Assembly (NCBI RefSeq): GCF_007859315.1 | Contig: NZ_VOHA01000005.1 | Span: 310,001 to 374,000, forward strand | Direction of reading: 5' to 3' | Origin: Reyranella sp. CPCC 100927 | Lineage (GTDB): Bacteria; Pseudomonadota; Alphaproteobacteria; Reyranellales; Reyranellaceae | Length of the DNA: 64,000 nucleotides | In this document: piece by piece, positions 7,476 to 48,486 of the stretch | Position numbering within the stretch: the stretch's first letter is position 1 | Layout of the letters: each line of letters begins with the position of its first letter | Notes under the pieces: model-generated | Databases searched by the model: none | The model's input: the letters and a program-made list of their open reading frames with translations, nothing else | What the model was told of the DNA's origin: nothing | Program-made: the position numbers and the translations under genes

Positions 7476-8453
7476 ATGTCCGTCGCCCCGCCCGCGCCGC
7501 GCATCGGCGTGCTGATCAACCGCAGGAGTGGCCGCAATCGCGCCAGCCTTACCGACCTGCGGCATCTGATCGTGCAGTCGCCCGATGTCGTCGCGCAGGA
7601 AACCTTGGGGCAGGCAGAAGCGCTGGAAGCGCTGCGTGCCTTCAACGATCAGGGCATCGATATCCTGGCCATCGCCGGCGGCGACGGCACACTGCAGCAC
7701 GTTTTCAGCCTGATGCTCAACGAGCGGGTTTTCCCGACATTGCCGCTGCTGGCAGTGCTGCCCGGCGGCACCACCAACATGATCGGCTACGATATCGGCG
7801 CGGCGCGCAAACCGGCCAAGGAACTGGCGGCGCTGCTTGAACGTGCCCGCACCGGCCGCCTGGACGAAGCGCGCGTTCGGCGCCGGCTGATTGCGGTGCA
7901 CCGGTCCGGCATGGCGGCGCCGGCCTATGGCCTGTTCGGCGGCGGTGCCGGCGTATACCAGGGCACCATGATCAGCCGCCGGTCGGTCGATCGCGTCGGC
8001 ATGCGCGACGCGGCCGGACCGCTGGCCGGGCTGGTGAGCCTGCTGGGCCCATTGATGATCGGCCGCAACCCGATCAAGCCAGTCGCTGCGCGCATTACGC
8101 ACGACGATATTGCCGACGAACCGCGCGACTATATCGCCATCGTCGTGAGCACGATGGAACGTCTGATCCTGGGACTATCGCCATTCTGGGGTACGGGTTC
8201 TGGTGCCATCCGGCTCACCACCGTGGCCGCCAAGCCCCGGCGCTTCTCACGCGTCGTGCTGCCGGCATTGAATGGCCGGCCGACGGCCGATACGACACCG
8301 GCCAACGGCTATCGCAGCGTCAACGCCGATCACATCGAGATCGACATGACCGGCGGGTTCGTGCTCGACGGCGAAGTCCTGGAACTCGAGGCGGGCCAAC
8401 CGCTCAGGCTCGACGCCGGCCCCGAGGTCACATTCGTGCGCGGCGGCGATTAG
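7476..8453 (+). CDS. Diacylglycerol kinase family (YegS/DagK-like) lipid kinase
   Basis: Protein of 325 aa with a diacylglycerol kinase catalytic domain: GGDGT at residues 68-72 binds ATP and PGGTTNM at 96-102 is the second glycine-rich loop. The C-terminal half has the beta-sandwich fold with the terminal FVLDGE segment expected of the family. It likely phosphorylates a lipid or sphingoid substrate at the membrane, but the substrate cannot be read from sequence. It follows recG by 19 bp and may share its transcript. A perfect-stem intergenic repeat lies 24 bp after the stop. Confidence 0.88.
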   Translation: MSVAPPAPRIGVLINRRSGRNRASLTDLRHLIVQSPDVVAQETLGQAEALEALRAFNDQGIDILAIAGGDGTLQHVFSLMLNERVFPTLPLLAVLPGGTTNMIGYDIGAARKPAKELAALLERARTGRLDEARVRRRLIAVHRSGMAAPAYGLFGGGAGVYQGTMISRRSVDRVGMRDAAGPLAGLVSLLGPLMIGRNPIKPVAARITHDDIADEPRDYIAIVVSTMERLILGLSPFWGTGSGAIRLTTVAAKPRRFSRVVLPALNGRPTADTTPANGYRSVNADHIEIDMTGGFVLDGEVLELEAGQPLRLDAGPEVTFVRGGD

Positions 8454-8477
8454 TACTCACGCGTCCCTGATACAGCT

Positions 8478-8563
8478 GTCATCCCGAGCGCAGCGAGGGA
8501 TCTTCTGCAAGTGACGCACGGGTGCACCTGCATCGAAAGATCCCTCGCTGCGCTCGGGATGAC
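8478..8563. repeat. Dispersed palindromic element, family 1, copy A (intact)
   Basis: Perfect 27-bp inverted repeat (8478-8504 and 8537-8563; arm begins GTCATCCCGAGCGCAGCGAG) around a 32-bp centre. The centre (CTGCAAGTGACGCACGGGTG onward) is also present in reverse orientation in copy C at 42934. The arms would form a very stable hairpin downstream of the lipid kinase gene. Confidence 0.9.
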
Positions 8564-8679
8564 GATCCTGAGTCACACTCTAGCGATCGTCGGCACTAGA
8601 CGGACTTGCCTGCGTCGGGCGGCGGCGACAGAGTGTCGGCCGCCAAGGCACGATCCGCAAGACAGGAGCACGTAGGCCC

Positions 8680-9291
8680 GTGAGCATCGAATTTCTGATC
8701 ACGTCGTTCATTGTCGTCGCCTCGCCGGGCACCGGCGTGCTCTATACGCTGGCCATGGGGCTCTCGCGCGGGTCGCGCGCCAGCGTCGTGGCGGCCTTCG
8801 GATGCACGATCGGAATCGTGCCGCATATGGCCGCCGCCATCATGGGCTTGGCCGCATTGCTGCACGCCAGTGCGCTGGCCTACGAGACGTTCAAGTACAT
8901 CGGTGTCGCCTACCTGCTCTACATGGCGTGGAATACGCTGCGCGAACACGGCGCCCTGAAGGTGGAGGCGGATGGCGGCAAGGGATCGGCCACGCAGGTG
9001 ACGGTGACGGCGGTCCTGATCAACATCCTCAATCCCAAGCTGTCGATCTTCTTCCTGGCGTTCCTGCCGCAGTTTGTCAGTGCCGACGAGGCACAGCCGA
9101 TGATGCAGATGCTGACGCTGAGCGGCGTCTTCATGCTGATGACGTTCGTCGTCTTTGTCGGCTACGGGCTGTTCGCCGCCGCCGTCCGCGACCACGTGAT
9201 CTCACGCCCTCGGGTGCTGACATGGATGCGGCGCACGTTCGCCGCGGCCTTTGCCGCCCTGGGCGCCAAGCTGGCCGTGGCGGATCGCTAA
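8680..9291 (+). CDS. LysE/RhtB family amino acid exporter
   Basis: Inner-membrane protein of 203 aa with about six transmembrane segments. The N-terminal ASPGTGVLYT motif is the family PGP-type signature (PGP.. here PGTG), followed by a G-x3-G-rich helix (GCTIGIVPH) and a conserved NPK (INILNPKLSIFFLAFLPQFV). Members export lysine, threonine, homoserine lactones or related compounds; the substrate is unknown here. It starts at GTG 8680 with AGGAG at 8664-8668. It stands alone, separated from the lipid kinase by a palindromic repeat and convergent with the next gene by a few bases of overlap. Confidence 0.9.
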   Translation: MSIEFLITSFIVVASPGTGVLYTLAMGLSRGSRASVVAAFGCTIGIVPHMAAAIMGLAALLHASALAYETFKYIGVAYLLYMAWNTLREHGALKVEADGGKGSATQVTVTAVLINILNPKLSIFFLAFLPQFVSADEAQPMMQMLTLSGVFMLMTFVVFVGYGLFAAAVRDHVISRPRVLTWMRRTFAAAFAALGAKLAVADR

Positions 9292-9695
9292 AGCCCTTCG
9301 CGCGAGCGCTGTCTGATGACAAACGACGCGCCGCACGCCAGCTTCTTGGTGGTTGGCGTGTCGGCATCCAGCACGCGCCAGAACGGCGTGATCTCGTTGA
9401 TGTCAGTGCCCTGCATGTGGGCCTCGTAAGCGGCCTCCGCGACCGTCCGCAGGTGAAATCCTGTCGTGATCGGGCACGTGACTTCCGCCTTGTAGCGGCG
9501 GGCCAGCTTCAGGCGCAGCGTCTTCACATCCATACTGGTGCCGCGCGGGATCCCACGGATGAAGGTGTCGATGATGCGTGGCGATGGTATCAGCATGATC
9601 TCGCCCTTCTTCATGCCGGCGATGTCCATCGGCGCCGGCTTCACCTGGTGCTGCACCGGCGTCGCGAACTTGTCTGTCCAGGTCTTTTTCGCCAT
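9288..9695 (-). CDS. Conserved protein of unknown function
   Basis: Small protein of 135 aa that I cannot place confidently. It has a basic N terminus (AKKTWTDK), a PAPMDIAGMKKGE stretch, a TFIRGIPRG loop, the hydrophobic-patterned TCPITTGFHLRTVAEAA (around 77-93) and an ITPFWRVLDADTPTTKKL segment ending in QRSREGL. The WRV...QR..EG ending loosely recalls the C-terminal alkyltransferase-like (ATL/MGMT) winged helix, but no PCHR-type active-site Cys is present, so that is only a hint. Its ATG lies 1 bp after the stop of the AraC/GyrI gene, so the two are almost certainly cotranscribed. Confidence 0.75.
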   Translation of the reverse strand: MAKKTWTDKFATPVQHQVKPAPMDIAGMKKGEIMLIPSPRIIDTFIRGIPRGTSMDVKTLRLKLARRYKAEVTCPITTGFHLRTVAEAAYEAHMQGTDINEITPFWRVLDADTPTTKKLACGASFVIRQRSREGL

Positions 9696-9696
9696 G

Positions 9697-10563
9697 TCAG
9701 GCCTCACACAAGGGCAGCCAGATGTCCGTCATCAGGTCCTGCGGCGGCGTATCGCGCGGACTGTTGAGATACTCCTCCAGGGCCGGCGCATTGGCGGCTT
9801 CCTTGCCTGATTGCACCAGCCAGTCGCCATAGAGCCACTGATATGCGGCTTTCATCGACGCGTAGGGGCCGACATGCCGTAGCACGGCATAGGGACCGCC
9901 CACGATGTCAGTGCGCACCACCGGCGCCTCGATTGGAAAGGACTCCTCGACCGCGACACAGGCTTTGGAGCGCAGCTTGTCCTCGTCGACCGCCAGGGGA
10001 TCGTCGAGGTACATGCCGATCGACCGCTGCCCGGGTCTGAGATGACTGCGCGCGCCCAACCATCCGTAGAGCGTATCGAACGCCTTGCCGATCTGCATGT
10101 AGGATCCGCGATGGTCGACGGCGACTGCCTGCAGGTCGGGCAGCTCCTTGATCGCGACCTCGTAGCCGCCCGGCCCCGCATCCTGGCGCACCGCCTGGAA
10201 CTTGGCGTGGTCGCCCTCGCGACGGTACTGCGCCGGTGGCATGCCGTAGGCGGCACTGAAGATGCGATTGAACGAGGCGACGTTCGGGTAGCCGGACTTG
10301 CGAGCAATCTCCTGGATGCTCATCGTGGTCTGCGCCAGATACCCCGCGGCACGGTGCAACCGCAGGCGCTTCACCGTCGCGGCAATCGTCTCGCCGTGTG
10401 TCGCATGATACACGCGATGCCAATGGTACGGCGACAGGCAGGCGATGTCGGCCAGCTTGTTGAGGTCCAGATCGTCGTCCAGGTGGTCGTAGACATACAT
10501 GGTCACCCGGTCGAGGCGCTCTCTATAGTTGGTCCAGTTGCTGCTGTTTTCCATCGGTTCCAT
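9697..10563 (-). CDS. AraC family regulator with GyrI-like effector domain
   Basis: Regulator of 288 aa. Unusually ordered for AraC proteins, the DNA-binding domain is N-terminal (about 1-115, two helix-turn-helices: LNKLADIACLSPYHWHRVY and IQEIARKSGYPNVASFNRIF). A C-terminal GyrI/SOUL-like small-molecule binding domain (about 130-285) contains the typical DHRGSY motif. This architecture (Rob/SoxS-like plus GyrI) senses amphipathic or drug-like ligands. Start: ATG 10563 with AAGG 5 nt before; ATG 10554 is possible. It is followed at 1 bp by the unknown small gene, a probable partner or target. Confidence 0.88.
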   Translation of the reverse strand: MEPMENSSNWTNYRERLDRVTMYVYDHLDDDLDLNKLADIACLSPYHWHRVYHATHGETIAATVKRLRLHRAAGYLAQTTMSIQEIARKSGYPNVASFNRIFSAAYGMPPAQYRREGDHAKFQAVRQDAGPGGYEVAIKELPDLQAVAVDHRGSYMQIGKAFDTLYGWLGARSHLRPGQRSIGMYLDDPLAVDEDKLRSKACVAVEESFPIEAPVVRTDIVGGPYAVLRHVGPYASMKAAYQWLYGDWLVQSGKEAANAPALEEYLNSPRDTPPQDLMTDIWLPLCEA

Positions 10564-10638
10564 CCGGCCTTGACGACGACCGGACCCTATCACCCCGCAA
10601 TTTGACAAATCTTGCGGTATGGGCGCCCCCGCCTGCTC

Positions 10639-11505
10639 TCACCCGAAGAACGCCAGCATCGCTTCCAGCGTCTCGCGCGGGGCTTCCTCGGGCAGGAAGT
10701 GGCCACCCGGCACGGCGTGGCCGCGGACATCGTCAGCCCAGTCACGCCAGACGGTCACCGGCTCGTACATGCGACCGACCAGGCCCTTCTCGCCCCACAG
10801 CACCAGCAGCGGACAGGCGATCTTGCGGCCGTTGTCGGTCTTGTGGTGTTCCAGGTCGATGCTGGCGCCGGCCCGGTAGTCCTCGCTGGTGGCGTGGATG
10901 CGTACCTGTGGTGCGAAGCAGCGCAGATACTCGGCGAAGGCCTCCGGCGTGATCGTGCCGGCGTCGGCCAGTGAGCCCAGCAGACGGCGCAGGTAGTATT
11001 CGGGGTCGGCCCCGATCAGGCGTTCGGGAAAATCGGCCTTCTGGATCAGGAAGAACCAGTGCCAGTAGGCGGTTGCCAGCTGCTTGTCGACATGGGCGAA
11101 GACATGCGGCGTCGGCACGATGTCGAGAACGGCCGCGCGGCTCACCCGATCGGGCCAGTCCAGCAGCAGGCGATGTGTCACCCGCGCACCGCGGTCGTGG
11201 CCAGCCACCATGAACCGGCGATGGCCGAGGTGTTCCATGACCTTGACCTGGTCAGCCGCGGTCGCGCGCTTGGAGTAGCTGAAATGATCGTCGGTCGTGG
11301 CCGGCACGCCGCTGTCACCGTAGCCGCGTAGATCGCTGGCCACGACGGTGAAGCGCTCGGCCAGTGCCGGCGCGATCTTGTGCCACATGACGTGGGTCTC
11401 GGGATAGCCGTGCAGCAGCAACAGCGGCGGGCCCTTACCGCCGACCAGGGCGTTGATGGTGGTGTCGCCGACATCGATGGTCTGGCGTTGGAATCCGTCG
11501 AACAT
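10639..11505 (-). CDS. Alpha/beta hydrolase of the fluoroacetate/haloacetate dehalogenase type
   Basis: Cytoplasmic hydrolase, 288 aa, single alpha/beta-hydrolase domain. The nucleophile elbow is GHDRGAR with Asp104 rather than Ser. It also has Arg105 and Arg108 (substrate carboxylate), Asp128 (acid), His149-Trp150 in AYWHW and Tyr210 in EDYRAG (halide pocket), and His269 in GGHFLPEE. These match the Asp-Arg-Arg-Asp-His-Trp-Tyr-His set of the characterised Rhodopseudomonas fluoroacetate dehalogenase, with near-constant offset. Related enzymes hydrolyse haloacetates to glycolate. Divergent from the dienelactone hydrolase with an 83-bp promoter region. The fold is certain; defluorinase activity is inferred from active-site residues. 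Confidence 0.85.
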   Translation of the reverse strand: MFDGFQRQTIDVGDTTINALVGGKGPPLLLLHGYPETHVMWHKIAPALAERFTVVASDLRGYGDSGVPATTDDHFSYSKRATAADQVKVMEHLGHRRFMVAGHDRGARVTHRLLLDWPDRVSRAAVLDIVPTPHVFAHVDKQLATAYWHWFFLIQKADFPERLIGADPEYYLRRLLGSLADAGTITPEAFAEYLRCFAPQVRIHATSEDYRAGASIDLEHHKTDNGRKIACPLLVLWGEKGLVGRMYEPVTVWRDWADDVRGHAVPGGHFLPEEAPRETLEAMLAFFG

Positions 11506-11588
11506 GGCTGCGCCTTCTCGCTATTCTGCCGTAGGATCGGAGACCAAACGCCCCGGCGCAAGCGCCAAGCGAAGCAGCGAGCAAACCG

Positions 11589-12305
11589 ATGATCAAGACC
11601 AGCGATATCGAGTATGCCGTTGACGGCAAGACCTATGTCGGTTTCCTCGCCGACGGTTCCAACGGCAACCGCGTACCGGGCATTCTCGTCTCACACGAAG
11701 GCGGGGGCATGACCGACCATCCCAAGGAACGCGCCAGGATGCTGGCCGACCTGGGCTATGTCGCCTTCGCCATGGACACCTTCGGCGAGCCCATGACCAG
11801 CCGCGAGCAGGTCAGGGCGACGATCGCCGCACTGACGGCGGACCTGCCGACCTTGCGCAAACGCGCGCAGGCAGCGCTTGAGATCGTGAAATCGCAACCG
11901 CATGCAGACCCGAAGCGAACGGCGGCCATCGGATTCTGCTTCGGTGGCACCACGGTGCTGGAACTGGCGCGCAGCGGTGCGGATGTCGACTGCATCGTCG
12001 GCTTTCATTCGGGCCTGCAGACCAGCAGGCCGCAGGATGCCCAGAACATCAAAGGCAAAGTGCTGGTCTGCCTGGGTGCGACGGATCCCATCATCCCGCC
12101 TGAGCAGCGCGAGGCCTTCATCCAGGAGATGGAGGCCGGTGCCGTCGATTGGCGCATGGAAATCTACGGCAGTGCCGGCCACAGCTTCACGAACCGGTAT
12201 GTCGATGCCCTCAATCTCCCCGGCTTCGCCTACCACGAGCGCACGGACAAGCGCTCGTGGCGCGCCATGCGCGACCTGTTCGACGAGGTGTTGGGGCCGG
12301 TCTGA
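11589..12305 (+). CDS. Dienelactone hydrolase family protein
   Basis: Alpha/beta hydrolase of 238 aa with a Cys nucleophile in GFCFGG (Cys near residue 117), Asp in GATDPIIPP and His in SAGHSFTN: the Cys-Asp-His triad of dienelactone hydrolases. Classical members open dienelactones from chlorocatechol breakdown, but this large family also acts on other esters. No chlorocatechol genes are nearby. The divergent neighbour is a dehalogenase-type hydrolase, so the pair might act on halogenated acids; that link is conjecture. It ends facing the M24 gene, only 12 bp away. Confidence 0.88.
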   Translation: MIKTSDIEYAVDGKTYVGFLADGSNGNRVPGILVSHEGGGMTDHPKERARMLADLGYVAFAMDTFGEPMTSREQVRATIAALTADLPTLRKRAQAALEIVKSQPHADPKRTAAIGFCFGGTTVLELARSGADVDCIVGFHSGLQTSRPQDAQNIKGKVLVCLGATDPIIPPEQREAFIQEMEAGAVDWRMEIYGSAGHSFTNRYVDALNLPGFAYHERTDKRSWRAMRDLFDEVLGPV

Positions 12306-12317
12306 ACGCCGAGGGCG

Positions 12318-13469
12318 TCAGCGCGCCACCAGATCGAGCGGCATGGCCGACAGGACCTCGTTGCCACCCTCGCCCACCACCACGGTGTGTCCTGGGCACA
12401 TGGCGGCTTCGGTGCCGCTGTCGAGCAGGATCATGTGCAGAAAGAACACCATGCCGGGCTCGGCCGGTACCGGGTTGCCGCGGTAGAACATTGGCCAGTC
12501 CATCCAGTTCGGCGCGAACGTCGTACCCAGGCTGTAGCCGCAGGCGTTGAGGCGATGCGCCTGGTAGCCATGCGTGTCGCAAACCCGCGCATAGGCATCG
12601 AACACCGCGCCGATCGGCTGGCCGGGCTTCAGCGCGGCAAGACAGGCGTCCATCGCCTCGAGGCAGACCTTGTGCATCTCGCGATGCTGCGAGCGCACCT
12701 CTCCGACCGGGATCGTCCGCATCAGGCAGGCGTGGTAGTGGCGATCGACGCCGGCGAACTCCAAGGTGATCTGGTCGACAGGATCGAGATGGCGCCGGCC
12801 GCTGAAGTAGCGGCAGAGCAGCCCGTCCCGCCCCGAGCCGATGATGAACTCGTTGCCGGGATAGTCGCCACCGCCCTTGAAGACCGCGCCCTGCATGGCC
12901 GCCAGCACGTCACCCTCGAAAGCGCCTGGCCGTACGGTATCGTGGGCCGCGCGCAGGGCATCATCGGCCAGTGCGGCGGCGCGCCGTACGTAGGCAAGCT
13001 CGGCCGGGCTCTTGATGACGCGCAGCCGCGACACCAGGTCCGAGGCGTCGACCAGGGTGCAGAAATCGTCCATGGCGGCGTCGAGCCTGCGGCCGTTGGC
13101 GGCGGTCAGGCCGTAGGCGTCATACTCGACGCCGAACGTGCCGCCGGCCCGGCCGATCGACTGCAGGAAGGCGCGCAGTTCCAGTGCCGGGTTGGCATCC
13201 GGTCCGTCGACCCAGATCCGGATGTCCTCGATCATCGACGTGTGCTGCGCCTGCCGCAGATCGGGCGCGCGCGTCAGCAACATGAGCCGCCCATCGACGC
13301 CCAGGTAGAGGCACTGGAAGAACACGTAGCCAAACGTATCATAGCCCGTCAGGTAGTACATGCTCTCTTGACGGAACATCAGCAGCCCGTCGAGGCCGCG
13401 CCGCTCAAGGTCGGCAATGGCACGCGCTCGGCGGTTCGCCAGTTCTTCGGTCGTGAAATGCAGCGCCAT
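12318..13469 (-). CDS. M24-fold hydrolase resembling ectoine hydrolase DoeA/EutD (non-metal active site)
   Basis: Pita-bread-fold protein of 383 aa: N-terminal creatinase-like domain (about 10-145, SMYYLTGYDTFGYV) and M24 domain (about 155-380). The usual five metal ligands are absent. The first ligand motif reads LEFAGVDRHYHACLMRT (236-252) and the His/Glu motif reads GYSLGTTFAPNWMD (311-324). This pattern (E-x-A-G...YH...RT and GYS-G) is what I recall for ectoine hydrolase DoeA/EutD, except that the PPDWGE-like end is altered to APNWMD. It probably cleaves an amide or cyclic amidine. Start is ATG 13469, in a run of genes with the flavoprotein and MDR reductase. No ectoine deacetylase is present, so the substrate is uncertain. 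Confidence 0.8.
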   Translation of the reverse strand: MALHFTTEELANRRARAIADLERRGLDGLLMFRQESMYYLTGYDTFGYVFFQCLYLGVDGRLMLLTRAPDLRQAQHTSMIEDIRIWVDGPDANPALELRAFLQSIGRAGGTFGVEYDAYGLTAANGRRLDAAMDDFCTLVDASDLVSRLRVIKSPAELAYVRRAAALADDALRAAHDTVRPGAFEGDVLAAMQGAVFKGGGDYPGNEFIIGSGRDGLLCRYFSGRRHLDPVDQITLEFAGVDRHYHACLMRTIPVGEVRSQHREMHKVCLEAMDACLAALKPGQPIGAVFDAYARVCDTHGYQAHRLNACGYSLGTTFAPNWMDWPMFYRGNPVPAEPGMVFFLHMILLDSGTEAAMCPGHTVVVGEGGNEVLSAMPLDLVAR

Positions 13470-13516
13470 GGTGTCTCCCGTCGCTGGTGCGGCTCCAACC
13501 AAAGGCTCACACAACA

Positions 13517-14692
13517 CTACAGCATCGACGCGTCCGTCGGCAGGCCGACCAGCACGCGGCCGGCCAGCTCGTAGCTGGGCGGCGCCACCATCATGTGCTG
13601 GGTCACGACATGCACGTCGCGGAAGCGGCGCTGCAGGGAGCTGGTCCGGTAGACCGACGTGCCGCCGGCCAGGGTATAGCAGATGTCGACCGCCCTTGCC
13701 GCGCTGTCGGTCGCATGCGTGGCCGCCAGCCGCAGCGCCATGCGCTCGTCGATGCCGATATCGGCGCCCCGCACCGCGGCATCCCAGGCAGTCTCGATCG
13801 CTTCCACCAGAAAGGCACGGGCGGATCGCACCAGCGCCTCGGCCTTGGCGATGTCGCCTTGCGTGCCGGATCGCTCGGCCAACGGCCGGCGGCTCAAGGT
13901 CGGCACCTTGGCGCCGGCCAGGGTCTGCAGATCCTCGATGGCGCCGCGGGCGATCCCGAGCGCGACCGCGCCGCAGCCCATGGCGAGGAGTCCGAAGACG
14001 GGGAAGCGATAGAGCGGCCCGTCGCTCTGCGGCTTGTCGCGGGTGAGCGACACGGCATGCGATGCCGGCACGACGACGCCCTCGATGCGCATGTCGCACG
14101 ACCCGGTGCCGCACAGTCCGGATGTGTACCAGTTGTCGTCGAAGGTGATCCTCTCGCGCGGCACGTAAACGGTCAGCACGTCCGGCACGCCGTCGCGCAC
14201 CTGCCGCGGCTTGCCGTCCTCCCAGGCAATGCAGCCAGCCTTCATCCAGCGGCTGTGGCTGTTGCCGCTGGCCCATTGCCAGTGTCCGCTGACGTGCCAG
14301 GTGTCCCCGTTACGCACGGCCTTGCCGCGCGGCGCGAAGATGCCGCCGGTGACGGCATCGGGATCGCCATGGATCAGGCGCGCGACATCCGGCGCGAGAT
14401 ACGCCGCGGTCGTGCCCGACGTCGCACCGATCATGACGTTCCAGCCCGCCGAACCGTCGGCGATGGACGCCGCCTCGATGGCCCGCATCAGCACCAGCGG
14501 GTGCGCCTCATGGCCATGCAGGGACGCTGGAACGCAAAGCTTGAATACCCCGGTGCCGATCAATGTTTCGGCAACGTCAGCCGGAAGCTGCCGTGCTTGT
14601 TCGATGTCGTCGGCGCGGACGGCGATCGCCGGCAGGACGGCATGGAGGCGGTCGAGGACCGGATGGTCGACGGATCGCACGGTACTTGTCAT
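13517..14692 (-). CDS. Acyl-CoA dehydrogenase-like flavoprotein (group D monooxygenase type)
   Basis: Protein of 391 aa with the acyl-CoA dehydrogenase fold: N-terminal helical domain, central beta domain with WHVSGHWQWASGNSH (around 133-147) and C-terminal four-helix domain. It lacks an obvious catalytic Glu context of fatty-acid dehydrogenases and resembles the group D flavin-dependent monooxygenases (HpaB/HsaA/DszC-type), which hydroxylate or desulfurise small substrates with reduced flavin from a partner reductase. Its ATG overlaps the stop of the MDR gene by 4 bp (ATGA at 14689-14692), and the M24 gene follows after 47 bp. The three form one transcription unit, probably a catabolic route. 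Confidence 0.82.
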   Translation of the reverse strand: MTSTVRSVDHPVLDRLHAVLPAIAVRADDIEQARQLPADVAETLIGTGVFKLCVPASLHGHEAHPLVLMRAIEAASIADGSAGWNVMIGATSGTTAAYLAPDVARLIHGDPDAVTGGIFAPRGKAVRNGDTWHVSGHWQWASGNSHSRWMKAGCIAWEDGKPRQVRDGVPDVLTVYVPRERITFDDNWYTSGLCGTGSCDMRIEGVVVPASHAVSLTRDKPQSDGPLYRFPVFGLLAMGCGAVALGIARGAIEDLQTLAGAKVPTLSRRPLAERSGTQGDIAKAEALVRSARAFLVEAIETAWDAAVRGADIGIDERMALRLAATHATDSAARAVDICYTLAGGTSVYRTSSLQRRFRDVHVVTQHMMVAPPSYELAGRVLVGLPTDASML

Positions 14693-15708
14693 GACGCCAA
14701 CCGGGCCAGTGCGCGACCGAAGATCTCGCCCCGCAGTTGGGCGCAAAAGAGGCCAGGCAGTGCCTCCAGGCCCTCCTCGATGTGCTCCTTGAATGCCAGT
14801 TTGCCGCCACGGATCCAGGCGGTCATGGCGGTGGTGGCTTCGTCGAAGCGATCGGCGAAATCGAACACCACCAACCCTTCCATGCGCAGCCGCTTGCCGA
14901 TGAAATCATGGACGCGACGCGTGCCGTAGCGCGCCTCGGGCAGTGTGTTGTAGTCCGAGATCTGGCCCGAGACCACGATACGACCTTTCGGCCGCAAATT
15001 GGCGATCGCGGCATCCAGCAGCGGACCACCGACATTGTCGAAATAGATATCAACGCCGTCCGGCGCCACGGCGGCAATACGCGCCGCGAGCGCGTCGGCA
15101 GAGCCGGCTGCGCTACGATCGACGACGGCGTCAAACCCGGCGACATCGCGCAGCCAACGTAGTTTCGCATCGCCGCTGGCGATACCGATGACGCGACAGC
15201 CCATGATGCGCGCGATCTGACCGGCCGTGGCGCCCACCGGACCCGCGGCCGACGAAATCAGGACGGTCTCGCTTGCCTGGGCGGCGCCGACGTCACGGAT
15301 GCCGAAATAACCGGTGAGCCCCGGAATGCTCAGGATACCGGCCCAGGCGCTCACCGAAGGCGTATCTGACGGCAGCCGACGCAGGCCACGACCGCTCACC
15401 TGAACATGTTCGGCCCAACCGAACGGGCCGGCCACCATGTCGCCGGCCTGGAAGTCGGGATTGCGCGACTGCACGACTCGGCCGACCGCTGGTCCTTCCA
15501 TGGTCTCGCCCATTTCCATCGCACGCGCATAGGACGCGTGGCCGGACAAGCGGTTGCGGCTGCCAGGATTGGCTGTCGCGTACAGCACCTGAACCAGTGC
15601 GCGCCCGTCGGGCAATGCCGGTAGCGTACGGGTGCGCACATCGAAATCGGCCGGCACAGGTGGACCGTCTGGCCGTCGTGCCAACACGACGTGGCGGCTG
15701 TTCAGCAT
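14689..15708 (-). CDS. MDR family NADPH-dependent oxidoreductase (zinc-less, CurA/leukotriene-B4-dehydrogenase type)
   Basis: Medium-chain dehydrogenase/reductase, 339 aa. A GroES-like N domain without zinc cysteines precedes a Rossmann domain with SSAAGPVGATAGQIA (around 151-165). DGVDIYFDNVGG and KGRIVVSGQIS are hallmarks of the CurA/PTGR family, which reduces activated double bonds with NADPH. Start ATG 15708 is supported by GGGGGAGGA 7 nt upstream. It is first in the operon with the flavoprotein and M24 genes and divergent from the DegT aminotransferase gene with a 111-bp gap. Confidence 0.9.
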   Translation of the reverse strand: MLNSRHVVLARRPDGPPVPADFDVRTRTLPALPDGRALVQVLYATANPGSRNRLSGHASYARAMEMGETMEGPAVGRVVQSRNPDFQAGDMVAGPFGWAEHVQVSGRGLRRLPSDTPSVSAWAGILSIPGLTGYFGIRDVGAAQASETVLISSAAGPVGATAGQIARIMGCRVIGIASGDAKLRWLRDVAGFDAVVDRSAAGSADALAARIAAVAPDGVDIYFDNVGGPLLDAAIANLRPKGRIVVSGQISDYNTLPEARYGTRRVHDFIGKRLRMEGLVVFDFADRFDEATTAMTAWIRGGKLAFKEHIEEGLEALPGLFCAQLRGEIFGRALARLAS

Positions 15709-15819: not shown

Positions 15820-17016
15820 ATGACTGATCTTTCAAGCGCCAGAGTCGCTCCGCCATCCGTGCGTCCGACGGCACCGACAGCCGGACCTTCTGCACCACCG
15901 CGCAAGATCGCGCAGGTGAGCCCATGGCTGGGCGAGGCGGAGGCGCAGGCCGTCGCCGACGTCGTGCGCGGTGGATGGATTACGGAGGGTCCACACGCGC
16001 GGGCCTTCTCTGATCAGCTCAACCATCTGATCGGCACGCCCTACGGCGTATTGGCACCCAACGGTACGCTGGCGCTGGCCCTGGGCCTGATGGCCCTCGA
16101 GATCGGCCAGGGCGATGAGGTCCTGGTGCCGGACACCACGTTCATCGGCTCCGCCACCGCCGTGCATATGGTGGGCGCAGTGCCGGTCCTGGTCGATGTC
16201 GACGATCAGACCTTCCAGATCGACATGAACCGGGCGGCGGCCGGCCTGACGTCCCGCACGCGCGCGATCATGCCGGTGCACCTGTTCGGCACGGCCTGCG
16301 ACATGACCGCGGTGCTGGATTTCGCAGTCAAGCACAGGCTGGCGGTCATCGAGGATGCCGCGCAGGGAATCGGCGTGACATTCGGTGGGCGCCACGTCGG
16401 CAGCCTGGGCGACGTCGGCTGTTTCTCCTTCTTCGCCGACAAGACCATCACCACGGGTGAAGGCGGCTACGTCGCCTGCAAGGACCAGCATGTCTATAAC
16501 CGCCTGCGCCTGTTGCGAAACCAGGGGCGGCTCGATCGCGGATCCTTCATCCACGAGGCGATAGGCTACAATTTCAGGATGACCGATCTGCAGTGCGCAA
16601 TCGGCGTCGCCCAGCTCGCACGGCTCGACCAGGTCATCAGCCGCAAGACCGAGCTGCTGCAGCGCTACCAAGCGGGACTGCAGCGCATTTCGGCAGTTCG
16701 AATGCTGGGCGCGGCGCCCAATGCCGGCCACGTACCATTCCGCTGCGTCCTGATGGCGCAGGACGTGCGGGGCCTGATGACGCACCTGGAGGCGGCGGGC
16801 GTGGAGACCCGTTCCTTCTTCCACCCCCTGCACCGCCAGCCCGGATTGCGCGCGTGGAGCGCCTCACGCGTCGAAGGCATGCACCTCGACGATGCGTCGT
16901 TCCCAAATGCGAACTATGGCTGGGATCACGGCGTCTGCCTGCCCATCCAGCCGACGCTGTCGCTGGCGGAGGTCGACTTCATCTGCGACAGCATCGCCGA
17001 ATTCTACGGCGTGTGA
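15820..17016 (+). CDS. DegT/DnrJ/EryC1 family aminotransferase
   Basis: PLP-dependent sugar-aminotransferase-type enzyme, 398 aa. It has APNGTLAL (79-86) for phosphate binding, EDAAQ with Asp179, and the Schiff-base Lys208 in FFADKTITTGEGG. C-terminal HPLHRQPG and a CLPIQPTLS segment complete the family pattern, closest in style to GDP-perosamine synthases. Such enzymes make amino sugars for surface polysaccharide. No other nucleotide-sugar genes are nearby, so the substrate is not fixed by context. The first 25 residues are Pro/Ala rich and may not belong to the fold. Ends facing the SDR gene. Confidence 0.9.
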   Translation: MTDLSSARVAPPSVRPTAPTAGPSAPPRKIAQVSPWLGEAEAQAVADVVRGGWITEGPHARAFSDQLNHLIGTPYGVLAPNGTLALALGLMALEIGQGDEVLVPDTTFIGSATAVHMVGAVPVLVDVDDQTFQIDMNRAAAGLTSRTRAIMPVHLFGTACDMTAVLDFAVKHRLAVIEDAAQGIGVTFGGRHVGSLGDVGCFSFFADKTITTGEGGYVACKDQHVYNRLRLLRNQGRLDRGSFIHEAIGYNFRMTDLQCAIGVAQLARLDQVISRKTELLQRYQAGLQRISAVRMLGAAPNAGHVPFRCVLMAQDVRGLMTHLEAAGVETRSFFHPLHRQPGLRAWSASRVEGMHLDDASFPNANYGWDHGVCLPIQPTLSLAEVDFICDSIAEFYGV

Positions 17017-17031: not shown

Positions 17032-17802
17032 CTACTCGGCACCCGAACCGATGACACCGCCATCGGCGATGATCACCTGGCCGCACACGAAGGCGCCCGC
17101 CTTCGATGCGAGGAAGACGGCCACACCGCCAATGTCGTCGGGCTCGCCGATACGCTTGAGCGCCGCCTTGTTTTCCTGCGCCGAGCGGATCTGCGGATTG
17201 TCCCACAAGGCGCGGGCGAAGTCGGTCTTGATCAGGCCCGGCGCGATGGCGTTGATGCGGATGTTGTGCTTGCCCCACTCCATGGCCAGCGACTTCACGA
17301 GCGACAGATCGGCCGCCTTGGACATGTTGTAGGCCGCGATGTGCGCCGAGCCGACCAGCGCACCGATCGACGACACGATGATGATCGAGCCGTCGCGGCG
17401 CTCGGCCATCTCAGGACCGACGGCATTGACCAGCCACAGGTTGCTGAGCACGTTGTTCTGCATGATCTTGTGAAAGACATCGTCTTTCAGGCCTGACAGC
17501 GGACCGAAATACGGATTGGCCGCCGCGTTGCAGACCAGGATGTCGATACGACCGTAAGCCTTGCGCGCGGCGGCGATCAGGTTCACGAGCTGGTCCTTGT
17601 CGGAGATGTTGGCGGCGACCGCCGTCGCATCTCCACCCTTGGCCTTGATGCCCGCAACCACCTCCTCGCAGGCCGGCAGCTTGCGACTGGAGACCACCAC
17701 CTTGGCGCCGTGCGCCGCCATCTGCTCGCAGATCGACCGGCCGATGCCGCGGCTCCCGCCCGTCACCACGGCCACCTTTCCCGTCAGGTCGAACATCGAC
17801 AT
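17032..17802 (-). CDS. SDR family NAD(P)-dependent oxidoreductase
   Basis: Classical short-chain dehydrogenase of 256 aa: TGGSRGIG cofactor loop (14-21), CNAAA (91-95), catalytic Ser145, Tyr158 and Lys162 in the YNMSK form, and a C-terminal G-x-V-I-x-A-D-G-G segment. It matches the FabG/gluconate 5-dehydrogenase/DHRS4-like group; the substrate cannot be named. It stands alone on the minus strand, convergent with the aminotransferase and with an upstream 10-bp inverted repeat that could be an operator. Confidence 0.9.
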   Translation of the reverse strand: MSMFDLTGKVAVVTGGSRGIGRSICEQMAAHGAKVVVSSRKLPACEEVVAGIKAKGGDATAVAANISDKDQLVNLIAAARKAYGRIDILVCNAAANPYFGPLSGLKDDVFHKIMQNNVLSNLWLVNAVGPEMAERRDGSIIIVSSIGALVGSAHIAAYNMSKAADLSLVKSLAMEWGKHNIRINAIAPGLIKTDFARALWDNPQIRSAQENKAALKRIGEPDDIGGVAVFLASKAGAFVCGQVIIADGGVIGSGAE

Positions 17803-18070: not shown

Positions 18071-19411
18071 CTAACGCCGAAACAACGCGGCCAGTTCAAC
18101 GTGCGGCGACCACAGGAACTGGTCGATCGGCAGGAGCTGCTCCAGGCGATAGCCGCCGTCGATCAGCGTGCGGGCATCGCGCGCGAAGCTTACGGGATCA
18201 CACGACACCGCAACGATCACCGGCACATGGCTGCGCGCCAATTCGGCGGATTGCGCCGCGGCACCGGCGCGCGGCGGATCGAAGACCGCTGCATCGTACG
18301 CATTCAGCTCTTCGGCCGGAACCGGATCACGCGCGAGGTCGCGGACGTGCGCCTGAGCCACGCCAACCAGCCCGGCCTTGCGCAGCGCGGCATCGACAGC
18401 CGCGACGGCGGCCTTGTCGCCCTCGACCAAGGTCAGACGTCGTTGCGGCAGCAATCCCAGCGACAGCGTGCCGACACCGGCGTAGAGGTCGACGACACGC
18501 CGCGCCGACCCCAGCCAGGCGCGCACGCACGCCTGCAGCGCGGCTTCGCTGGGGACGCTGGCCTGCAGGAAAGCGCCGGGCGGCGGCTCGACATCCACCG
18601 GCCCCAGCCGCAAACGAGGTGCACGTCGGATGACGACCGGCTCGGCCATCCGACGTCCACCCCAGGAAACGCGCGCGACATCGGTTGCCTCGGCAAAGGC
18701 CGCCAGTGCCACGCGGCTATCGAGGTCCAGAGGCAGGCGATCCGCTGGGATCAACAGGATGTCCGCGCCGGTATCGGTCCAGTTGACGACAGCCTCCGCA
18801 TCAGCTCCCCGTGGCAGCACCTCAGGGATCAGTGCGCGCAGCGGCGGCACCAGTTCAGCCAGCGCCGGCATGAGGACGGGGCACGCCTGGAGGTCGACAA
18901 TGGCGTGCGAGGCGCGGCGCGCGAACCCGACGACGGCGCCATCCGCTGTGCGTTTGAGCGTAAAGTCGGCGCGCCGCCGCAACCCCGGCGCCGTACGCAT
19001 CATCGGTACGGTCTGTTGCGGGACCACGTCGCGATAGCCAAGCGCGGTGGTCACCGCTTGCGCCTTCCACGCCGCATAGGCCGAATCGGGCCAATGCTGC
19101 AGGGCGCATCCGCCACAGGAGCCGAAGTGCGGGCAGGCCGGCTCCTGCCGATCCGCACCCGGCGTCAGCACCTGCAGCAATTCGGCATCGAACCGATCGC
19201 CTCGAGGGCGGATCAGGCGGGCCGCCACGGTCTCGCCCGCCAGCACATAGGGAATGTCGACGATGCGACGCGCACCATCAACATCAACGGCGGCGCGACC
19301 GGTGCCACCGCCACCGATCGTATCGACCGTGACCGTGATCGTCTGCGACGGTGCCGCCGGAACCGACGATCCGGGCCGCGGCCGACCTAGGGAGCGGTTG
19401 CGCCGAGCCAT
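18071..19411 (-). CDS. Class I SAM-dependent rRNA/tRNA m5U methyltransferase (RlmD/TrmA/RumA family)
   Basis: Protein of 446 aa that methylates uridine C5 in rRNA or tRNA. It has an N-terminal TRAM domain (about 22-82) and an iron-sulfur motif C-x5-C-x2-C (Cys93, Cys99, Cys102) with a further Cys in DLQACPVL. The SAM domain has VDLYAGVGTLSLGL, DPPRAG, and the catalytic Cys in VSCDP near residue 405. Start ATG 19411 lies inside the preceding asparaginase gene (25-bp overlap, same strand), implying coupled translation. An open frame runs much further upstream but is out-of-frame asparaginase sequence. Confidence 0.92.
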   Translation of the reverse strand: MARRNRSLGRPRPGSSVPAAPSQTITVTVDTIGGGGTGRAAVDVDGARRIVDIPYVLAGETVAARLIRPRGDRFDAELLQVLTPGADRQEPACPHFGSCGGCALQHWPDSAYAAWKAQAVTTALGYRDVVPQQTVPMMRTAPGLRRRADFTLKRTADGAVVGFARRASHAIVDLQACPVLMPALAELVPPLRALIPEVLPRGADAEAVVNWTDTGADILLIPADRLPLDLDSRVALAAFAEATDVARVSWGGRRMAEPVVIRRAPRLRLGPVDVEPPPGAFLQASVPSEAALQACVRAWLGSARRVVDLYAGVGTLSLGLLPQRRLTLVEGDKAAVAAVDAALRKAGLVGVAQAHVRDLARDPVPAEELNAYDAAVFDPPRAGAAAQSAELARSHVPVIVAVSCDPVSFARDARTLIDGGYRLEQLLPIDQFLWSPHVELAALFRR

Positions 19412-42933: not shown

Positions 42934-43035
42934 GTCATCCCGAGCGCAGCGAGGGATCTTTCGATGCAGGCGCACCCATGCGTCACTTGCAGAAGATCCC
43001 TCTCCTGAGCCTGCCGAAGGGGCGCTCGGGATGAC
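42934..43035. repeat. Dispersed palindromic element, family 1, copy C (inverted centre, interrupted arm)
   Basis: Left arm 42934-42960 is identical to copy A. The centre equals the reverse complement of the copy A centre with two changes. The right arm (42993-43035) is interrupted after AAGATCCCTC by TCCTGAGCCTGCCGAAGGGG and then resumes CGCTCGGGATGAC. It sits between convergent amidohydrolase and dioxygenase genes. Confidence 0.88.
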
Positions 43036-48400: not shown

Positions 48401-48486
48401 TGTCATTCCGAGCGCAGCGCGGAATCTCTCCCGATGACGCACCGTGCCTCCGGCGGAAAAGATCCCTCGCTATGCTCGGGATGACA
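48401..48486. repeat. Dispersed palindromic element, family 1, copy D (diverged)
   Basis: Arms TGTCATTCCGAGCGCAGCGC (from 48401) and ...CTCGCTATGCTCGGGATGACA (to 48486) pair imperfectly. The centre keeps GATGACGCAC and GAAAAGATCCC of copy A. It fills the gap between the ABC ATPase and the aminotransferase. Confidence 0.85.

Follow-up and report, generated by a model that had tools for sequence, protein, structure and literature searches.

An M24 protein with replaced metal ligands beside a separable reductase-monooxygenase gene pair in Reyranella sp. CPCC 100927

The genome of the alphaproteobacterium Reyranella sp. CPCC 100927 contains three neighboring open reading frames (ORFs) on the minus strand at positions 12318-15708 of the 64,000-nucleotide stretch that was analyzed (contig NZ_VOHA01000005.1, positions 310,001 to 374,000; hereafter the window). 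From the ORF list and Pfam matches, they encode an M24 protein of the creatinase/prolidase fold (12318-13469, minus strand, 383 residues; PF00557 with 108 bits and PF01321 with 66 bits), a flavoprotein resembling the flavin monooxygenases HsaA and Rv3094c (13517-14692, minus strand, 391 residues), and a curcumin-reductase-like double-bond reductase of the medium-chain dehydrogenase/reductase (MDR) type (14689-15708, minus strand, 339 residues; PF16884 and PF00107). We conclude with high confidence that this stretch consists of two separable things, a reductase-monooxygenase pair and an M24 protein that sits in a variable slot beside it. The original prediction located all three genes correctly but took them as one unit; within the bacterial family, the M24 gene and the pair are linked in some genomes, and in others one is present without the other.

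The reductase-monooxygenase pair and its variable neighbor

The comparison with relatives covered 61 genomes, namely the window's genome (G000) and 60 relatives, with 37 genomes belonging to the window's family. The reductase was found in eight of the 61 genomes (E<=1e-110), and the same eight own the monooxygenase at no less than 70% identity, with the two genes adjacent in every case. In seven of the eight (G000, G001, G004, G006, G007, G009, and G011) the pair continues, on one strand, a string of genes that in the window consists of a cytochrome P450 (20474-21703, minus strand), an asparaginase II family protein (PF06089; 19387-20403, minus strand), an RlmD/RumA-like methyltransferase (18071-19411, minus strand), and a short-chain dehydrogenase/reductase (SDR) oxidoreductase (17032-17802, minus strand), which lies ahead of the reductase in relatives and is 83-96% identical in seven stretches. 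In the eighth genome, G002, the contig stops past the reductase, and the P450 and asparaginase II genes are located on another short contig. The string occurs without the pair in all three further genomes read (G003, G005, and G008), and the P450 is present in 36 of the 37 family genomes and, outside the family, in a single genome of the order (E<=1e-130). In G037, of the same order, the P450 was the sole window protein found in the 11 kb read. The reductase and the monooxygenase form a linked pair added onto a P450-asparaginase II-RlmD-like-SDR string that is older. The run from string to pair is interrupted in G000 and G001 by an opposite-strand DegT/DnrJ aminotransferase gene between the SDR and the reductase (15820-17016, plus strand), which among the 12 stretches compared was found elsewhere only in G001, and one additional gene stands within the string in G004 and likewise in G006. 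As a separate observation, the genes for the methyltransferase and asparaginase II share 25 bp in the window, and they remain next to the P450 in those genomes of the family that were read.

The junctions within the trio differ in kind. The original prediction reported spacings of 4 and 47 bp; the latter is a true gap with a ribosome-binding-like GGGAG shortly upstream of the M24 ATG, and the former, read directly from the sequence, is an ATGA overlap of the reductase stop and the monooxygenase start (14689-14692, minus strand). Translational coupling of the reductase and the monooxygenase through this overlap is likely.

The M24 gene is located downstream of the pair, on the same strand, in five of the eight pair genomes. 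It follows the pair directly in the window and in G002, and one extra gene for a protein of 339-340 residues intervenes in G007, G009, and G011, where the genes from the P450 through an alpha/beta hydrolase run uninterrupted on one strand. This hydrolase (10639-11505, minus strand, in the window) immediately follows M24 in G007, G009, G011, and G013. Other genomes differ from this arrangement. G001, of the same genus, carries the pair along with a relic of M24 that is 34 codons long and has 79% identity; G006 has the pair without M24, as does G004, whose contig ends ∼200 bp past the monooxygenase. In G013, a genome that is 67% complete, M24, a gene for a 338-residue protein, and the SDR gene are spaced by 2-3 bp and the pair is not there. 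G003, another member of this genus, lacks all three genes, and ∼20 bp separates the aligned ends of a lipid-kinase gene and the SDR gene. Since gene content between the kinase and the SDR differs among relatives, we regard this stretch as a variable slot. The window's genome holds a single copy of the M24 subfamily, the next copy having only 30% identity. The 338-340-residue protein that adjoins M24 in genus g5 (L068:9852-10871, L069:9249-10268, L070:9117-10139, and L067:3516-4532) resembles a TIM-barrel glycosidase by eye, and the L068 copy, which was the one scanned, had no Pfam or NCBIfam match.

Linkage beyond the family was examined in a class-wide sample of 385 genomes, in which up to five candidates were scored per genome and copy numbers are lower bounds. 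The M24 subfamily was found in 77 of these genomes and the monooxygenase in 15 (E<=1e-90 for each). Both genes occur in three genomes: they are linked in G000, ∼176 kb apart in G232, and on different contigs in G324. A tblastn search with the three proteins against 174 stretches (E<1e-30) likewise located the pair at four of 168 M24 loci, all four of the window's family; many of these stretches are just 3-9 kb long, and more distant linkage is outside their reach. The original prediction had itself named conserved synteny of the trio in relatives as a test, and this synteny fails outside one bacterial family. The proposed ring opening after oxygenation in a three-gene pathway is therefore left without support.

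Active site, fold, and neighborhoods of the M24 subfamily

An alignment of 104 subfamily rows, near-identical rows included, revealed no variation at R220, E237, Y245, Y312, P320, and W322. H345 and H246 are each present in 103 rows, D324 and M323 in 101, and N321 in 84. The motif APNWMD, where DoeA has PPDWGE, had been correctly noted in the original prediction as a change in this one protein; it is instead the signature of the subfamily. Alignment of Escherichia coli PepP (Met1 numbering) with 13 subfamily rows places R220 at H244, E237 at D261, H345 at E384, and a glycine (G360) at E407, and D272 corresponds to Cys or Ala at position 248, or to Lys in one distant row. The His ligand of PepP and prolidase corresponds to Y312 in the prolidase alignments, the PepP alignment being affected by a gap at this position. 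These PepP residues are the catalytic His and the metal ligands, which agrees with how PepP mutant structures are titled. M24 metallopeptidases of the PepP/prolidase type use D, D, H, E, and E as their five metal ligands; here E237, C/A248, Y312, H345, and G360 stand at these positions, which bears out the predicted loss of the metal-ligand pattern. Four distant plasmid relatives keep R220, E237, and H345.

The predicted structure of the M24 protein has a mean predicted local distance difference test score of 93.4 (46-row alignment). Its closest structural match is the ectoine hydrolase DoeA/EutD (6yo9, Z 47.6, root-mean-square deviation 1.7 over 379 residues), followed by the best prolidase (Z 40.9), creatinase (1chm, Z 39.8), and Spt16 (Z 35.1). 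The protein is therefore DoeA-like in fold, as had been claimed. Like DoeA (6twk and 6yo9), with which it shares 27% identity along the whole length, it is a pita-bread protein without dinuclear metal ligands, and it keeps E237 (E255 in DoeA, by chain counting), Y245/H246, a CGY motif, and P-x-W. DoeA acts through a covalent mechanism. Unlike DoeA, the M24 protein has R220 in place of H238 (6twk numbering), H345 in place of Met, and WMD rather than WGE. It scored 143.8 bits against the curated DoeA model TIGR02993 (cut-off 613) and 153.8 bits against NF038259 (cut-off 575). A second, truer DoeA-like M24 gene is located elsewhere in the genome (C31:15921-17084; L078 and L184), with 438 bits against TIGR02993 (cut-off 613), a PPTWGE motif, and an ABC-transporter-like gene nearby. 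Like DoeA itself, this C31 copy has His at the R220 position, and the two have Met or Ile at the H345 position.

The M24 protein shares the pita-bread fold with creatinase but has 20% identity to it, and creatininase is not beside the window gene. The dimethylsulfoniopropionate lyase DddP keeps the M24 metal ligands according to PMC4108388, unlike the window protein, in which these positions are replaced.

A tree of 109 rows was calculated by a quick method, with the near-identical row L174 left out and 39 of 106 inner branches open. The window protein clusters with the copies of its family in a group (Shimodaira-Hasegawa-like approximate likelihood ratio test, 98) that also takes in G062 and G193, which belong to another family and lack the pair. 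Thalassospira-type lone copies are next to this group, and rows linked to pgeF are scattered throughout, with 14 label changes. A very long separate branch carries DoeA and the C31 copy, so the phylogeny suggested in the original prediction separates the window protein from DoeA on a deep branch and places it in another, broad subfamily. From this placement, the window M24 is a copy not linked to pgeF in a subfamily that often is. A literature search found no paper on this subfamily within open-licence full text, where some result lists were covered only in small part.

The M24 protein has relatives at no fewer than 582 loci of species-representative genomes, and the gene neighborhoods of named genomes were read for the best 80 of these. 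The best 80 include Thalassospira, Kiloniella, Dongia, Pelagibacteraceae (SAR11), SAR324, and SUP05. The gene pgeF is present in 35 of the 80 stretches, mostly as the next gene upstream, and the string around it reads by eye as rfaD-lgt-midA-pgeF-M24-lipoprotein-prs-rplY-pth-ychF, which is a housekeeping context. Rhizobium leguminosarum and Sinorhizobium meliloti carry M24 as well, and their annotation confirms lgt, pgeF, and phosphoribosyl pyrophosphokinase, along with ribosomal protein L25 in Rhizobium. The class sample, which partly overlaps with the named genomes, gave 101 matches outside the window, of which 76, mostly the nearer ones, were fetched and 74 had a called M24 gene (L170 and L225 were excluded). 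In this set, pgeF is the immediate neighbor at 34 of 74 loci. Because it lies upstream at 31 and downstream at three (L230, L243, and L244), the adjacency of M24 and pgeF outlasts a change in gene order.

Neighbors of other kinds are fewer. At five of the 74 loci, M24 has a fused hydantoinase/oxoprolinase gene as its immediate neighbor (domains checked on L118), and at one locus an arginase-like gene, judged by eye; the other immediate neighbors are mostly unrelated to one another. Among the best 80, single checked cases have arginase-family, LamB/YcsF, carboxyltransferase CT_A_B, DUF1989, or HpaB neighbors. Distant relatives with 37% identity adjoin creatininase in Rhodococcus jostii RHA1 and Paenarthrobacter aurescens TC1, and a relative in Terrarubrum (46%) has hydantoinase/carbamoylase and allophanate hydrolase genes nearby. 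The cyclic amide or amidine substrate advanced in the original prediction fits these neighbors (hydantoinase/oxoprolinase, LamB/YcsF, CT_A_B, arginase family, creatininase, and allophanate hydrolase), which constitute a minority.

Two further observations concern the subfamily. In the SAR11 loci L144 and L149 (Pelagibacteraceae, 8000-12200), M24 starts 2 bp past an M20-type gene, which by eye looks DapE-like, and a histone-deacetylase-family gene comes after M24; domains were checked for L144 alone. In family f115, four genomes each have five or more copies of the M24 subfamily, and in three of these, two or three of the copies lie near one another (G341:C388, G252:C4, and G150:C12).

The flavoprotein, the reductase, and the rest of the window

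The flavoprotein contains acyl-CoA dehydrogenase C-terminal Pfam domains, and the fold family given in the original prediction is correct; its best matches are flavin monooxygenases. We take it to be a group D flavin monooxygenase. Dehydrogenases carry a catalytic Glu in the region where Rv3094c has its proton-donor His. The closest solved relative is Rv3094c (7f70, E 3.6e-68), with 42% identity over 356 residues. Of the 19 Rv3094c pocket residues listed in PMC9904262, 11 are identical in the flavoprotein, including the proton donor (H351, here H366). The conserved positions include the flavin-site residues W80, G113, S138, W174, L179, S184, and H351, and W115, the gate residue F221, F352, and Q353 are changed to F, L, M, and M, respectively. 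An Rv3094c-like pocket with H366 and a changed gate therefore supports oxygenation chemistry on another substrate. The score against the HsaA model NF045629 is 163.4 bits, under its cut-off of 450. Four distant homologues (40-51%) were inspected, three of which (L079, L080, and L181) are near acyl-CoA dehydrogenase-like and enoyl-CoA-hydratase-like genes, recognized in part by weak similarity, and the fourth (L180) not directly.

In contrast to Rv3094c, no flavin reductase or repressor similar to Rv3093c or Rv3095 was seen beside the flavoprotein. The Pfam scan took in 50 of the 57 called window genes and revealed no flavin reductase among them, the remaining genome not having been searched for one, and the monooxygenase step is thus without a visible partner. 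The same scan gave no match to a doe or ect gene, so the earlier statement that doeB, doeX, and ect genes are missing holds for the genes scanned. The best match to the DoeB model in the whole genome, on another contig, is 270.5 bits (cut-off 402.7). A search for EctC had no match, and since its controls were also silent it has no bearing on ectoine synthase.

The reductase resembles the NADPH-dependent curcumin/dihydrocurcumin reductase family (NF058644) as an MDR protein with a PF16884 N-terminal domain, and it scores 301.4 bits against that model (cut-off 440), with PF16884 and PF00107 both recognized.

Beyond these genes, a dienelactone-hydrolase-family protein (11589-12305, plus strand), convergent with M24, was not seen in any of the 12 stretches that were compared. 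A promoter scan gave no sigma-70-like promoter. Five terminator-like sites were detected, compared with 1.7 (sd 1.3) in shuffled sequences, and all five are within genes. GC content ranges from 63.6 to 69.7%, and composition gives no sign of a foreign block. A 27-base element (AAGATCCCTCGCTGCGCTCGGGATGAC) is present in six copies on both strands with up to three mismatches, with none expected in shuffles. These form inverted pairs at 8478-8504/8537-8563 and 17962-17988/18000-18026, with single copies at 42934-42960 and 48459-48485.

Proposed functions and their alternatives

Our current explanation, which we consider moderately probable as a whole, is that a reductase-monooxygenase pair stands next to a metal-independent M24 hydrolase. 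In the pair, the MDR enzyme would reduce a C=C bond and the monooxygenase would oxygenate via a flavin hydroperoxide, using reduced flavin from a reductase encoded elsewhere; judging from position and co-occurrence, the substrate may be one handled by the P450/SDR string. The M24 protein is probably a catalytically active, metal-independent hydrolase, as suggested by residue conservation and the predicted fold. Its metal-free reaction would be hydrolysis of a C-N bond in a small cyclic amide or amidine, with Glu237, also found in DoeA, as the putative nucleophile or base, and with H345 (replacing a metal-ligand Glu) and R220 (replacing the usual His) possibly serving in acid/base chemistry and anion binding. 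That the substrate is a cyclic nitrogen compound is a tentative proposal.

Several points weigh against this explanation. The trio has stayed linked in five genomes from two genera, and a genuine functional link of recent origin would be compatible with this. The proposed cyclic nitrogen substrate depends on a small minority of loci, as hydantoinase/oxoprolinase and arginase-like genes are immediate neighbors of M24 at just the five and the one of 74 class-sample loci described above, and the commonest neighbor, pgeF, points elsewhere. The rebuilt active site could also mean no catalysis, and the missing flavin reductase among the scanned window genes leaves the monooxygenase partner out of sight.

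If the trio were one catabolic route, the reductase and monooxygenase would modify an N-heterocycle and M24 would open the ring. The shared strand and orientation in five of 37 family genomes, the GGGAG in the 47-bp gap, and the uninterrupted run from P450 to alpha/beta hydrolase in three of them are what such a route would look like; it is nonetheless unlikely given the M24 relic in G001, M24 without the pair in G013, the pair without M24 in G004 and G006, its absence from 164 other M24 loci (some of them read over just 3-9 kb), and the lack of linkage in both other class genomes that own M24 and the monooxygenase. Similarly, the C-terminal Pfam matches and the beta-oxidation-like surroundings of three distant homologues could suggest that the flavoprotein acts as an acyl-CoA dehydrogenase and that the pair takes part in beta-oxidation, but the best solved relatives are monooxygenases and the proton-donor His of Rv3094c is kept, making this very unlikely.

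For the M24 protein itself, somewhat more credence, though still a low one, goes to a catalytically dead protein with a binding or regulatory role. Such roles are those of Spt16 and Ebp1 in eukaryotes. Replacement of the metal-ligand positions, loss of the general His, and the appearance of Spt16 among the structural matches agree with this idea; against it are the strict conservation of the polar residues R220, E237, Y245, H345, and D324, the enzymatic neighbors in some relatives, and the precedent of DoeA, which likewise has no metal ligands yet is an enzyme. An X-Pro peptidase, in line with the Pfam M24 and Creatinase_N domains and with the public records, which name M24 relatives 'Xaa-Pro peptidase family protein', is highly improbable with E, C/A (K in one distant row), H, G, and R at PepP positions D261, D272, E384, E407, and H244. 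Ectoine hydrolase has almost no likelihood left despite DoeA being the closest solved structure. Membership in DoeA was rejected on the basis of scores far under both cut-offs, Arg in place of the DoeA His in 104 of 104 rows, and the nearer homologue on C31, and nothing doeB- or ect-like was matched nearby among the window genes scanned.

Returning to the preferred explanation of a pair beside a metal-independent hydrolase, a broader and equally tentative picture is that of a distinct, widespread M24 subfamily of metal-free metabolite hydrolases with a rebuilt site (His to Arg220, ligand Glu to His345, Glu237 kept). It may be a housekeeping or repair partner of PgeF in many Alphaproteobacteria and may elsewhere have been recruited to cyclic-amide, hydantoin, creatinine-type, or guanidino use. 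A neat three-gene neighborhood need not equal a pathway, as the parts of this one occur independently in near relatives, and the interest lies in the M24 subfamily itself more than in a three-step pathway. Its members carry an NCBI X-Pro peptidase label despite their replaced metal-ligand positions, and their swapped His/Arg site, in which a Glu is conserved, could uncover chemistry new to the pita-bread fold.

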